A DNA stretch of 64,000 nucleotides, from contig NZ_BMYU01000006.1 in NCBI RefSeq assembly GCF_014652435.1, positions 62,001-126,000 of the forward strand, read 5' to 3'. This stretch comes from Cognatundibacterium squillarum. GTDB lineage: Bacteria; Pseudomonadota; Gammaproteobacteria; Burkholderiales; Burkholderiaceae_D. Of this stretch, positions 2,662 to 7,489 are shown in pieces (positions within the stretch are counted from its first letter, which is position 1; each line of letters begins with the position of its first letter). The notes beneath the pieces are model-generated. The model was not told the origin of the DNA. It saw only the letters and a program-made list of their open reading frames with translations, and searched no databases. The translations under genes were made by a program, and so were the position numbers.

Positions 2662-2781
2662 TGTATTTTTTTTAGTACAGTGTATTTATTTGTGTACACT
2701 GTTATGTAATGTGTACGCTTCAGAGAGAAAAGCCACAGAATATGAAAGCCGGATGAGGTGGGGTGTACAGAAATTTGTACA
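2662..2781 (+). promoter_or_regulatory. Array of four TyrR-type 18-bp operator boxes
   Basis: Four 18-bp sites fit the TyrR-box layout (TGTAAA-N6-TTTACA): TGTATTTTTTTTAGTACA at 2662, TGTATTTATTTGTGTACA at 2681, TGTTATGTAATGTGTACG at 2700 and TGTACAGAAATTTGTACA at 2764. Each keeps the G and C separated by 14 bases that mark E. coli TyrR boxes. The first three start exactly 19 bp apart. They lie about 100 to 200 bp upstream of the predicted sigma-54 start site, the usual place for enhancer sites. The TyrR-like activator encoded at 5930-7489 is the obvious candidate ligand; that link is inferred. Confidence 0.7.
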
Positions 2782-2844
2782 GTCAGAATTCGCCGGTTTT
2801 TTCATTCTGCGCTAAGTGTTTGAATTTTATTGATCTTTTTTGAG

Positions 2845-2860
2845 TGGCATACACATTGCT
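2845..2860 (+). promoter_or_regulatory. Sigma-54 (-24/-12) promoter of the alr-dadA block
   Basis: TGGCATACACATTGCT matches the sigma-54 consensus TGGCACG-N4-TTGCW at both conserved cores, with GG (2846-2847) and GC (2858-2859) at the required spacing. It predicts a start near 2871, about 28 bases ahead of the alr ATG. Upstream boxes and a GAFTGA-containing activator in the same operon support it. Confidence 0.75.
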
Positions 2861-2898: not shown

Positions 2899-4026
2899 AT
2901 GCAAGTAAATACCGGACGGGCTGGTGCGATACTGCGGATCGATCTGCAGGCACTGAGAGCCAATTATCAGATACTGAAAACGCAACTGGGATCAGCGGCC
3001 TGCGGTGCAGCTGTGAAAGCGGATGCGTACGGCCTCGGCGCTGCAGAAGCAGCGCCGGCATTGTATCTGGAAGGCTGTCGTCACTTTTTCGTTGCACATC
3101 TGGAAGAGGGCATTGTCTTGCGCCCGCTGCTGCCGGCGGATGCGATGATTATCGTGATGCACGGCTCACCAGTCGGCTGTGAAGCAGATTTGCTGTCGAA
3201 TGGACTGACACCAGTGCTGAACAGTCTGCAGCAGATTGCGGCCTGGAATGCTCTGGCAACTGACAAACAAACCCGCCTTCCGGCATTTGTGCAGTTTGAT
3301 ACCGGCATGGCGCGTATGGGTTTGTCACCCGCAGAAGTCGATGTACTGCGGGCCGATCCACAGCGTTTTGCGGCGATTGATGTGCTGTATGTGATGAGTC
3401 ATCTGGTCAGCGCAGAAGATCAGATGAATCCGGTCAATCGTGAACAGCTCGAAAAATTCCGTGCATTACGCGCGCTGTTTCCGGCAGCAAAAGCAACGCT
3501 GGCCAATTCTTCCGGTATTTTTCTGGGCAAGGATTTTCACTTCGATCTGGCGCGTCCGGGCGCAGCGTTGTACGGCGTGGCACCCGTAGCAGGACAAGCG
3601 AACCCTATGCGCGCAGTCGCCCACTTGCAGGGCCGCATTATTCAGACGCGCGATATTCCGGCAGATACCGGTGTCGGTTACGGCAGTACCTGGCGGAGCA
3701 GCCGTCCGTCACGTATTGCGACCGTGGCGGTCGGCTATGCCGATGGCTGGCTGCGCAGTCTCAGTAACCGTGGCACGGTGCAAATCGCAGGTCACGACGT
3801 GGCAATGGTCGGCAATGTATCCATGGATACGATCACGCTGGATGTCACAGGCTTGCCGGACGACATACTGGCGGAAGGCGCACTGGTGGATTTGCTGTCA
3901 GATCAGCTGACCGTTGATCGCGTTGCCAGTGCCGCACGCACCATAGGCTATGAAATCCTGACCAGCCTCGGACACCGTTATGCACGGGTTTACAGCGGTT
4001 CAGAACCAATCTCAAAAACAGTTTAA
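2899..4026 (+). CDS. alr: Alanine racemase, probably catabolic (DadX-like)
   Basis: PLP enzyme interconverting L- and D-alanine. The protein is 375 residues, the normal family length. The PLP lysine is Lys40 in [10 protein letters not shown], and the C-terminal half carries [10 protein letters not shown], the catalytic-tyrosine region, and [12 protein letters not shown]. Because the next gene is D-amino acid dehydrogenase, it most likely works as the catabolic DadX: L-alanine to D-alanine, then oxidation to pyruvate and ammonia. A biosynthetic Alr for peptidoglycan would be expected elsewhere in the genome. GGAG lies 9 bases before ATG 2899. It is the first gene behind the sigma-54 promoter. 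Confidence 0.93.
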
Positions 4027-4052: not shown

Positions 4053-5342
4053 ATGAAAGTCATCGTATTAGGTTCAGGCGTTATCGGTACTGCATCCGCT
4101 TATTATCTGGCCAAGGCCGGTCACGAAGTGACAGTGATTGAGCGTCAGAGCGCACCGGCACTGGAAACCAGTTTTGCGAATGCCGGTGAAGTGTCTCCCG
4201 GCTATTCCGCACCGTGGGCTGGCCCGGGCGTGCCGCTGAAAGCGATTAAATGGCTGATGATGGAACACAGCCCGCTGGCAATCCGCCCTACGCTGGATGC
4301 GAACACATGGCGCTGGGTGTTCCAGATGCTGATGAACTGCACAACATCTGCGTATGAAGTGAATAAAGGCCGTATGCTGCGCCTCGCTGAATACAGCCGC
4401 GATGTACTGCAGCAATTGCGTGCCGATACCGGTATCAGCTATGACGAGCGCACACAGGGCACGCTGCAATTGTTCCGTAATGAAGCACAGCTGGAAGCCG
4501 CTGAAGGCGATATCGCGATTCTGAAACGCTACGATGTGCCATACGAAAAACTGGATAAAGCAGGCTGCCTGAAGGTGGAACCGGCGCTGGCCAAAGTACA
4601 GGATAAATTCGTCGGCGCGCTGCGCCTGCCGGGTGATGAAACCGGTGACTGCTTTAAATTTACCCAGAATCTGGCCAAGCTGGCGGAAGGTCTGGGCGTG
4701 AAATTCCAGTTTGGCGTACAGATTGAACGTCTGCTGTTTGAAGGCGACAAAATCACCGGCGTGAAAACATCCGCCGGTACGCTGACCGCAGACAGCTATG
4801 TGCTGGCGCTGGGCAGCTATTCGCCACTGATGCTGAAAGAGCTCGGCATCCGTATTCCTGTGTATCCGATCAAAGGCTACTCGATCACCGTACCGATCAC
4901 CAATCCGGACGGTGCACCGGAATCCACGGTGATGGATGAAACCTACAAAGTAGCGATTACCCGTCTGGGCGACCGCATCCGCGTTGGCGGTACTGCAGAA
5001 ATTACCGGTTATAACCTCAATTTGCGCGCCGATCGCCGTGCAACGCTTGAGTTCTCTGTCAGCGATCTGTTCCCCGCAGGCGGCGATGTGTCGAAAGCGG
5101 AATTCTGGACGGGTCTGCGTCCGATGACACCGGATGGTACGCCGGTGGTCGGCCCGACACCTTACCGTAATCTGTTCCTGAACACCGGCCACGGCACACT
5201 GGGCTGGACTATGGCCTGCGGTTCCGGCCAGTTCATTGCGGATGTGGTTTCCGGTAAGCGTCCTGCTATTTCGACTGAAGGTCTGTTTATGGACCGTTAC
5301 GGCAACAACCGCCCGCTGATCCTTCCCAAGGAGTTGGCATGA
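4053..5342 (+). CDS. dadA: D-amino acid dehydrogenase (DadA)
   Basis: FAD-dependent, membrane-associated oxidation of D-alanine and other D-amino acids to 2-oxo acids, passing electrons to the respiratory chain. It is 429 residues long. The N-terminal dinucleotide fold is [19 protein letters not shown], followed by the acidic residue in VIERQ. The C-terminal region [16 protein letters not shown] and [16 protein letters not shown] is characteristic of DadA and related DAO-fold enzymes. CAGGAGCAGAAAA before ATG 4053 provides a ribosome site, and the gap after alr is 26 bases. Its stop overlaps the following regulator gene by four bases (ATGA). Confidence 0.94.
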
Positions 5343-5899
5343 GCCAGTCTGAACAACTGTTTTCAACCACGCAGGTATTTGCAGACCCTGGTCTGAATAC
5401 CCGGTTTTACACTGCCGTCGAATTGCTGGCGCAGGTCATGATGGTGATGCCGCGTGCAATCACCGTGACCAGTCTGGCGGAAGCGACAGGTAAAACACCG
5501 CGCAGTATCCGTTCTATCCTGAGCATGTTAAGTCAGGACGGACTGGTCAGCCGCGACAGCAAAGACAAAGAAGCCTGGCACTGCCGGGATTGCAACGGCG
5601 TGATTACGCTGGGTGATGTCTATCGCTGTTTTGCGGAAGCGGAAGCCCGCGTGGCAATGAAAGCAGCCGGGAAAGCGCAGAAAGAGACTGCGGTTTCCGG
5701 GTTGGCAGGCGAGTCTGCCAGAAGTTCAAACCAGCAAAGTGTGGATCTGCTGATGATACAGGTCCGCATGACTCTGAACCGCGCCATGCTGCAGCAACTG
5801 GAACAGTTTGATCTGAGCCGCTTGCGCGGTCTGGCCGCGTCAACCGCCACGCGCAGCGTGCAACACCGCCTGCGCCCTTACGTGGCCGAACCTTACTGA
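5339..5899 (+). CDS. Rrf2-type winged-helix transcriptional regulator
   Basis: A 186-residue protein with an N-terminal winged helix resembling Rrf2 regulators: [29 protein letters not shown] is the helix-turn-helix and [14 protein letters not shown] matches the conserved segment after the wing. Only one CxxC (CRDC, near residue 83) is seen, not the three-cysteine cluster of IscR/NsrR, so an iron-sulfur sensor role is doubtful. The C-terminal half is specific to this protein. It is translationally coupled to dadA (ATGA overlap), so it presumably regulates or tunes the D-alanine operon. Family assignment is moderate and the ligand is unknown. Confidence 0.6.
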
Positions 5900-5929: not shown

Positions 5930-7489
5930 ATGCGCATTGATATCTGTTTCCGCGACCGGGTGGGAATTGCCCATGAAATTCTGGCGGTGCTGGCGACCCG
6001 CAGGCTGAATGTGGTGGCGGTGGAAGTCGATCCGCCGCATATCTATATCGACAGTCCCGAATTGCATGAGCGCATGCTGGATGACCTGCGTGCAGCCTGC
6101 CTGCAGGTGGAAGGCGTGACCGGCCTGCAAGTGATTGATGTGATGCCCGGTGTACGCCGCCGTTTACATCTGGATACCATGATGGCGGTGATGGAAGATC
6201 CGGTCGTGGCGGTTGACGGGCAGGCAAGGCTGGTGGTCGCAAATGCCGCGGCCAGCGCAGTCACAGGCTTGCCGGAAGCCAGCCTGTGTCAGCTGATGCT
6301 GGCCGATATTCTGGATGAACCGGGCTTGCAGGAAGAATTGCTGCAGTCCGGATTCCATCTGCCCAGCCGTGAAGTTCGTCTGCGCGGCGAACCGTTTCTG
6401 CTGGATGTAAAACCGGTGTCTGAACCGGAACTGGCTGTGCAGACGCCGCTCAGTCGTCTCGTCGGCGCGGTGCTGACTTTCCATGCGCCGTCACGTATCG
6501 GCAGCCACATCCATGCACTGCAAAATGCCAGTGTCGATGGTTTTGATCTGATCATCGGTGATTCTGAACAAATGCGCGCACTGAAAGCCCGCGCATTGCG
6601 GATGGCGGCTGTGGATGCACCTTTACTGATTACCGGCGAAACAGGTACCGGTAAAGAATTGCTGGCGCAGGCGTGCCACAGCGTTAGTCCGCGTGCGAAT
6701 GCGCCGTTTCTGGAACTGAATTGCGCAGCTTTGCCGGAAAGTCTGGCGGAAAGCGAATTGTTCGGCTACATGCCGGGTGCGTTCACAGGCGCACAAAAAG
6801 GTGGCAAGCCCGGTCTGTTTGAAATGGCGGACGGCGGCACCGTGTTTCTGGACGAAATCGGCGAGATGTCGCTGTATCTGCAGGCCAAGCTGTTGCGTTT
6901 CCTGAATGACGGTAAATTCCGCCGTATCGGCGGCGATAAGGAAATCCGCGTCAATGTGCGCATTATCAGCGCCACGCACCGCAATCTGCATCAGATGGTC
7001 AGGGAAGGGCAGTTCCGCGAAGATTTGTTTTACCGGCTGAATGTGCTGCATCTGGATATGCCAGCGCTGCGCGACCGTCCTGACGATATCCTGCCGCTGG
7101 CACGGCATTTCATCGAAGGTGCCTGTACGCAGGCGCAAAAGCCGGTTTGCCGTCTGCATTCTTCCGCATGCGCTGCACTGCTGGCCAACCGCTGGCCCGG
7201 CAATGTACGGCAACTGCAAAACGTGGTGTTCCGTGCGATTACGATGTCTGACCGCCGCACGCTGGAAGCGCAGGATCTGGACTGGGCGGAAGGGAGTATC
7301 GCTACCGATCAGCCCGGTATTGCAGACAATGAAGACTGGGATGAGGCAATGGCGCGTTATGAGCGCCGTTTGCTGGAGCAGTTGTATCCGCACTATCCGT
7401 CCAGCCGCAAACTGGCAGCGCGCCTGAACACTTCCCATTCTATGGTGGCTGGCAAGCTGCGCAAATACGGCATCCCGCACAGCCGCTGA
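5930..7489 (+). CDS. TyrR/PhhR-like sigma-54-dependent activator (ACT-PAS-AAA-HTH)
   Basis: 519 residues with the TyrR domain order: N-terminal ACT domain (MRIDICFRDRVGIAHEIL, about 1-75), a PAS-like domain (about 80-190), AAA+ domain with Walker A GETGTGKE (236-243) and Walker B TVFLDEIGEM, and a C-terminal helix-turn-helix (SSRKLAARLNTSHSMV). Unlike E. coli TyrR, which lacks it and works with sigma-70, this protein keeps an intact GAFTGA loop (283-288), as needed to contact sigma-54. ACT and PAS modules suggest direct amino-acid sensing. As last gene of the dad block, with TyrR-type boxes and a -24/-12 promoter in front of alr, it probably activates D-alanine catabolism; this is inferred. 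Confidence 0.85.
   Translation: MRIDICFRDRVGIAHEILAVLATRRLNVVAVEVDPPHIYIDSPELHERMLDDLRAACLQVEGVTGLQVIDVMPGVRRRLHLDTMMAVMEDPVVAVDGQARLVVANAAASAVTGLPEASLCQLMLADILDEPGLQEELLQSGFHLPSREVRLRGEPFLLDVKPVSEPELAVQTPLSRLVGAVLTFHAPSRIGSHIHALQNASVDGFDLIIGDSEQMRALKARALRMAAVDAPLLITGETGTGKELLAQACHSVSPRANAPFLELNCAALPESLAESELFGYMPGAFTGAQKGGKPGLFEMADGGTVFLDEIGEMSLYLQAKLLRFLNDGKFRRIGGDKEIRVNVRIISATHRNLHQMVREGQFREDLFYRLNVLHLDMPALRDRPDDILPLARHFIEGACTQAQKPVCRLHSSACAALLANRWPGNVRQLQNVVFRAITMSDRRTLEAQDLDWAEGSIATDQPGIADNEDWDEAMARYERRLLEQLYPHYPSSRKLAARLNTSHSMVAGKLRKYGIPHSR

Follow-up and report, generated by a model that had tools for sequence, protein, structure and literature searches.

TyrR-type boxes upstream of alr-dadA in Cognatundibacterium squillarum as the probable enhancer of a sigma-54 promoter

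What controls the alanine-catabolic operon alr-dadA of Cognatundibacterium squillarum, in front of which 18-bp inverted repeats of the TyrR-box type are arrayed? The operon lies in a 64,000-nucleotide stretch of contig NZ_BMYU01000006.1 (positions 62,001 to 126,000, forward strand), the whole of which we call the window. An earlier note, made from the letters of this DNA, had described four such boxes, three of them 19 bp apart, and had suggested that D-/L-alanine catabolism was rewired to a TyrR-class sensor encoded in the same operon. Our analysis partly supports this interpretation. The regulator class stands, but the mechanism was incomplete, as the sigma-54 side of the circuit (a GAFTGA loop in the activator and a −24/−12 promoter) and an IHF-like site had been missed. 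Judging by its sequence, the region is very probably the upstream activating sequence of a sigma-54 promoter, to which a TyrR-like activator of alanine catabolism would bind in response to its presumed ligand.

All four boxes with the G-N14-C hallmark are indeed found upstream of alr. Three match the TGTA-N10-TACA core without mismatches, all on the forward strand: box 1 (2662..2679, TGTATTTTTTTTAGTACA), which has counterparts in 12 relatives, box 2 (2681..2698, TGTATTTATTTGTGTACA), 19 bp from box 1, and box 3 (2764..2781, TGTACAGAAATTTGTACA), 83 bp from box 2. The fourth (2700..2717, forward strand, TGTTATGTAATGTGTACG) has two mismatches to the core. The series of starts at 2662, 2681 and 2700 is thus real, but its last member is weak: in an alignment inspected by eye, 6 of the 7 genus rows, of which two are nearly identical, retain the G-N14-C of the 2700 box, whereas none of the 6 other loci does, and we regard this box as a weak genus-level extra at most. 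The conserved unit is formed by the boxes at 2662, 2681 and 2764.

When the 374-bp intergenic region (2525-2898) was shuffled 20,000 times with its dinucleotides preserved, perfect boxes arose with a mean of 0.0088 per shuffle; one perfect box was present in 176 shuffles, two or more in none, and the 19-bp pair in none. Predicting a regulon from single boxes proved uninformative, with 36 perfect sites in the genome as against 37 for a reversed-pattern control. Besides the three alr boxes, no two of these 36 listed sites lie less than 200 bp apart, as judged by eye. In a search for the 19-bp pair that allowed up to two mismatches, the sole exact match in the genome was the alr upstream region; inexact pairs are meaningless at this threshold, since there were 7 matches in all and 20 in the control.

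The operon begins with alr (also dadX; 2899..4026, forward strand), encoding an alanine racemase (PF01168, PF00842, TIGR00492), and continues on the same strand with dadA (4053..5342) for a D-amino acid dehydrogenase (PF01266; NF001933, 709 bits). The dadA stop is overlapped by a gene for an Rrf2-like winged-helix protein (5339..5899, forward strand), whose match to PF02082 is below the cut-off. The fourth gene (5930..7489, forward strand) encodes the predicted activator, a TyrR-like sigma-54 enhancer-binding protein with ACT, PAS, AAA+ and HTH_50 domains. Its ACT and PAS matches are below the Pfam cut-offs; residues 1-190 align with E. coli TyrR (2JHE) and the HTH aligns with a TyrR homologue (1G2H). 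The AAA+ domain matches PF00158 (Sigma54_activat) with 232.5 bits and has the Walker motif GETGTGKE and the GAFTGA loop. A loop of this type is present in all 14 aligned activators, with G, F, G and A invariant and either T or S after the F. In two of them (L012 and L015, the activators of G021 and G025, both from genomes without dadA at the locus) the loop reads GAFSGA or GSFSGA, and the activator of L011 likewise has GAFSGA.

The domain order and the HTH are those of TyrR, and the NCBIfam TyrR model is the best match of the activator (473.7 bits), as might be expected if an aromatic-responsive TyrR regulator with its classical boxes had taken over D-alanine catabolism. We nevertheless consider such a takeover improbable. 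The score remains under the equivalog cut-off of 576 (NF008085). A tree of 47 rows places the activator in a group of 32 rows (100/97) together with dadA-linked and GcsR-type proteins. Eight of the nine rows labeled as aromatic-type by similarity (for L109 also by a neighbor read by eye as phhA) lie apart from it; the ninth, L105, forms a long branch just outside the group. A reduced quick tree, which omitted three outgroup rows and three long rows (L105, L113, L219), recovered the dadA-linked/GcsR group (99, 31 rows) and joined the 20 dadA-linked and allied rows into a single clade with only 58. The branching order of dadA-linked and GcsR-type proteins is settled by neither the full nor the reduced tree.

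Gene neighborhoods within this clade also speak against an aromatic regulator: leaving aside L044, L098, L100, L219 and L225, the neighbors that we identified are alanine or glycine genes. A relative of the activator adjoins dadA at L102, L104, L217 and L218, glycine cleavage genes at L099, L101, L103, L224 and L227 (GcvH/GcvP of the first three recognized by eye), and a sodium:alanine symporter gene at L096 and L226, the symporter gene of L096 being divergent from the activator gene with the boxes between them. More distant activators (47–48% identical) with boxes at 19 and about 78 bp next to the gene occur at L220-L222, where a Cys/Met-metabolism PLP enzyme is encoded divergently from the activator at L221 (by Pfam) and L222 (by eye).

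Similar modules accompany these relatives. From 80 wider homologue loci we examined L096-L117, while L118-L175, where longer than 12 kb, served as random background only. Triple boxes, in which the 19-bp pair is joined by a third box, were present at 14 of 20 wider-group loci outside the family, with a distance of 76–82 bp between boxes 2 and 3 at 11 of these 14; the scan found no triple at L097, L098, L100, L219, L223 and L225, and none at the 12 aromatic-type or outgroup loci. Random 720-bp stretches contained a triple in 56 of 4428 cases, so that about 2.5% would be expected per locus, where two flanks were scanned. In several classes of proteobacteria, genes for TyrR-like activators whose enhancers are laid out in much the same way thus lie next to alanine and glycine genes. 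Since the relatives' modules precede dadA, the alanine dehydrogenase gene ald, alanine symporter genes or glycine-cleavage genes, an aromatic signal is unlikely. We infer alanine as the signal from gene context, because dadA is replaced by ald in one genome and by alanine symporters in two; a counterpoint is that the ald genes of G119 and G132 stand elsewhere without the pair.

To follow the module among closer relatives, we sampled 145 genomes of the family, 15 of which (that of C. squillarum included) carry a close activator orthologue with at least 62% identity, G009 being matched in part and the next best genome falling to E = 7e-81. Farther out the activator is rare: at E ≤ 1e-120, a search of 300 genomes from the order matched it in 5, namely our own, two from the genus and two more, and among 398 genomes from the phylum 23 had a match, which was mostly GcsR- or PhhR-like. 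We compared the window with 14 other family loci, and the module was alignable in 13 loci, the window and 12 others. In these, boxes 1 and 2 are always exactly 19 bp apart, box 2 is separated from box 3 by 68–83 bp, and box 3 from the −24 element by 73–92 bp, where box 3 and the −24 element are the best matches in their intervals. The boxes of the relatives are likewise the best-scoring matches, and since G-N14-C earned extra score, the invariance of both letters in the 39 boxes is partly due to selection.

Of the 15 activator-bearing family genomes, 12 have the exact pair, compared with 0 of the 130 without activator (Fisher p = 4e-15, uncorrected for shared descent), which bears out the earlier note's assignment of the boxes to the TyrR-class activator encoded in this operon. 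There are 13 sites in these 12 genomes, all no more than about 6 kb from the activator gene. The carriers without the exact pair are G063 and G104, each with a single deviating letter in box 1, and also G009. A reversed control pattern of the pair matched 20 of the 145 genomes, carriers and non-carriers alike.

One could also imagine that the boxes are bound by the Rrf2-like protein or by a DadR of the Lrp/AsnC type, while the activator acts elsewhere. The Rrf2-like gene is, after all, part of the operon, known dad operons use an AsnC-type DadR according to the excerpted text of one paper (PMC9714295), and one relative (L076) has an AsnC gene beside dadA. This is even less probable than an aromatic regulator, however, as the boxes persist at four loci (L037-L040) where no Rrf2-like gene was found, and the exact pair is absent from all genomes without the activator, including some where dadA adjoins mutT as in the window (L055, L063, L067; neighbors assigned by eye). 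Further, similar modules go with the activator's relatives in other classes. Pfam and NCBIfam searches gave no AsnC-type regulator among the four operon proteins. The Rrf2-like protein could be an additional regulator of alanine utilization. Homologues of it, with 34–39% identity, precede the activator gene at L042, L043 and L044.

We return to the TyrR-like activator as the protein that would bind the boxes. Their conservation upstream of alr or dadA in relatives, on which the earlier note had staked its reading, is found with one exception, G009 (L046, C160), where the activator stands beside dadA and no matching boxes were found at the locus; here the wiring has been altered or the boxes are located elsewhere. 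In G021 (L041, C40; reversed coordinates 562-2174), the pair and a sigma-54 site precede ald rather than alr-dadA, and the activator gene starts about 3.7 kb beyond ald; a run of N masks the middle of this module, which is why it is not among the 13 alignable loci. G021 is the only genome in which ald was found to take the place of dadA. The module of G025 stands ahead of just the Rrf2-like gene and the activator gene, with no dadA at the locus. At the three loci where genus members G119 and G132 have ald elsewhere, no 19-bp pair was found. One of them (L232, G132:C4) has two box-like sites 31 bp apart upstream of ald (1239-1287) and no sigma-54 match; possibly the same boxes are used differently there.

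The candidate −24/−12 promoter lies between box 3 and alr (2845..2860, forward strand, TGGCATACACATTGCT) and has one mismatch to TGGCAC-N5-TTGCW, with the GG-N10-GC of such elements in place. Matches to this pattern with up to two mismatches are common in the window (57 found, 53.6 expected), so that the match alone is not rare and its weight comes from position and conservation. Taken as the best match in the interval, the element agrees with the pattern in 10–12 of 12 positions in all 13 loci; the window's own agrees in 10, below 11 of the 12 other loci. RpoN is encoded in all 15 activator carriers, our genome included (PF04552). The start site would presumably lie near 2870, as placed from the −12 position by a spacing rule that we assume, and the centers of boxes 1, 2 and 3 would then be about 200, 181 and 98 bp upstream of it. 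Repression, or no more than modulation, of a sigma-70 promoter by the activator, in the manner of E. coli TyrR, would fit a box pair abutting the activator start codon in G095 but is the least probable of the alternatives, given the GAFTGA-type loop in every aligned activator, the −24/−12 element at 13 of 13 loci and a simple consensus scan that found no sigma-70-like site in 2500-2920 (shuffles give 0.6). The G095 pair (L045, C62, 4674-4710) is an exact one, exists besides the usual module before alr and suggests autorepression.

Between box 3 and the promoter there is an IHF-like site (2813..2825, reverse strand, TAAGTGTTTGAAT) with one mismatch to what we take to be the IHF consensus, relaxed by one position; the genus alignment shows the block CTAAGTnnTTGA here. 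The corresponding motif YAANNNNTTGAWW is located 31/32 or 41/42 bp ahead of the −24 element in 10 of the 13 loci, with no match in the other 3, and its strict form is present at three loci (L039, L043, L045). In the 121,095 bases of the loci, the pattern occurs 19 times, the ten promoter-linked occurrences included. In L037 and L039, which have the motif at 41/42 bp, the distance from box 3 to the promoter is likewise greater by about ten bp; bend site and enhancer may have been displaced jointly by one helical turn.

These parts would fit together as follows. On sensing alanine (presumably D- or L-alanine), the activator would assemble on the boxes, and a DNA bend between box 3 and the promoter, probably made by IHF, would bring it to sigma-54 RNA polymerase at 2845-2860. 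Its AAA+ domain, through the GAFTGA loop, would then drive open complex formation, leading to transcription of alr, dadA, the Rrf2-like gene and the activator gene, which we assume to be co-transcribed. L-alanine would be racemized to D-alanine and this oxidized to pyruvate and ammonia, while the activator would exert positive feedback on itself via its own operon. The loose idea of a TyrR rewiring thereby becomes a testable sigma-54 circuit with defined parts.

A circuit of this kind has precedent. As described in the available part of a paper on Azospirillum brasilense Sp7 (PMC6375630), TyrR is required there for dadA expression and for growth on D-alanine, the tyrR-dadA region has three TyrR boxes and −12/−24 elements, and the TyrR-like protein carries GAFTGA, which E. 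coli TyrR lacks. This contradicts the premise of the earlier note that known dad operons are not under TyrR control. Of the proposed rewiring, the regulator class stands, the kind of wiring was already known, and an aromatic signal is unlikely. To the extent covered by that text, the two circuits share a GAFTGA-bearing TyrR-like protein, three boxes, a −24/−12 element and dadA as target; they differ in that the A. brasilense genes are described as divergent, whereas here alr-dadA and the activator gene have the same direction and the racemase comes first. The same part of the paper leaves box binding and ligand for future work. In our tree the A. brasilense protein is represented by its nearest named stand-in, from Caenispirillum (L102).

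The nearest characterized kin of the activator, by sequence, is GcsR of Pseudomonas and not the aromatic TyrR/PhhR. Six Pseudomonas proteins (L097-L101, L103) are 55–57% identical to the activator, as compared to 37–44% for nine gammaproteobacterial rows of the TyrR/PhhR type. According to the portion available of the GcsR study (PMC4894688), GcsR binds three 18-bp repeats by EMSA and, on glycine, activates transcription from a promoter that has a putative RpoN site; in vivo mapping, in a similarly partial source (PMC9159945), puts its main site at this promoter, and support for any others is poor. Sigma-54 dependence and three 18-bp sites are thus common to GcsR and the system proposed here, but the half-sites differ (TGTAACG/CGTTCCG in GcsR, TGTATT/AATACA here), as do the target, which is the glycine cleavage operon instead of alr-dadA, and the signal, which is glycine. 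Among 11 loci of the GcsR clade, 4 have a layout of 19, about 81 and about 82 bp, 2 more have a gap of 58–69 bp, and 5 lack such a layout; several of the clade's −24/−12 matches reach only 9 of 12 positions. E. coli TyrR and Pseudomonas PhhR share the domain order and the 18-bp G-N14-C boxes with our system, but respond to aromatic amino acids. The dadRAX system of P. aeruginosa likewise combines a racemase and a D-amino acid dehydrogenase with a dedicated regulator; this is, however, an AsnC-type DadR, under which the available text of PMC9714295 places the Pseudomonas dad genes. Compared to the open-access literature, the spacing rule, the target swaps and the operon alr as the only racemase found in seven of seven genus genomes are new.

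In each of these seven sampled genomes, the single PF00842 racemase is always the alr of this operon. Of the eight other carriers, five have a single racemase located elsewhere, two (G115, G095) have such an enzyme in addition to that of the operon, and in G009, which is 80% complete, no PF00842 racemase was found. It is conceivable, though doubtful, that two generalizations hold jointly: that the genus lost its housekeeping racemase, leaving the catabolic-type operon alr as sole survivor and the D-alanine supply for the cell wall dependent on an alanine-gated sigma-54 switch, or at least sharing its promoter; and that the layout of 19, about 80 and about 80 bp marks a subfamily of small-amino-acid-sensing TyrR-like activators. 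A peptidoglycan enzyme looks to be placed behind an apparently substrate-gated promoter here, and if the cell has no source of D-alanine other than the operon alr, the supply of a cell-wall precursor hinges on a catabolic switch. The sole-racemase reading, if true, poses the question of basal expression, for which an undetected promoter or read-through from the upstream mutT could account. PF01168 searches of the window's genome yielded only the operon alr and a 236-aa open-frame protein, which we take to be YggS-like. Three racemases of the type located elsewhere were compared with the operon enzyme and are 29–32% identical to it.
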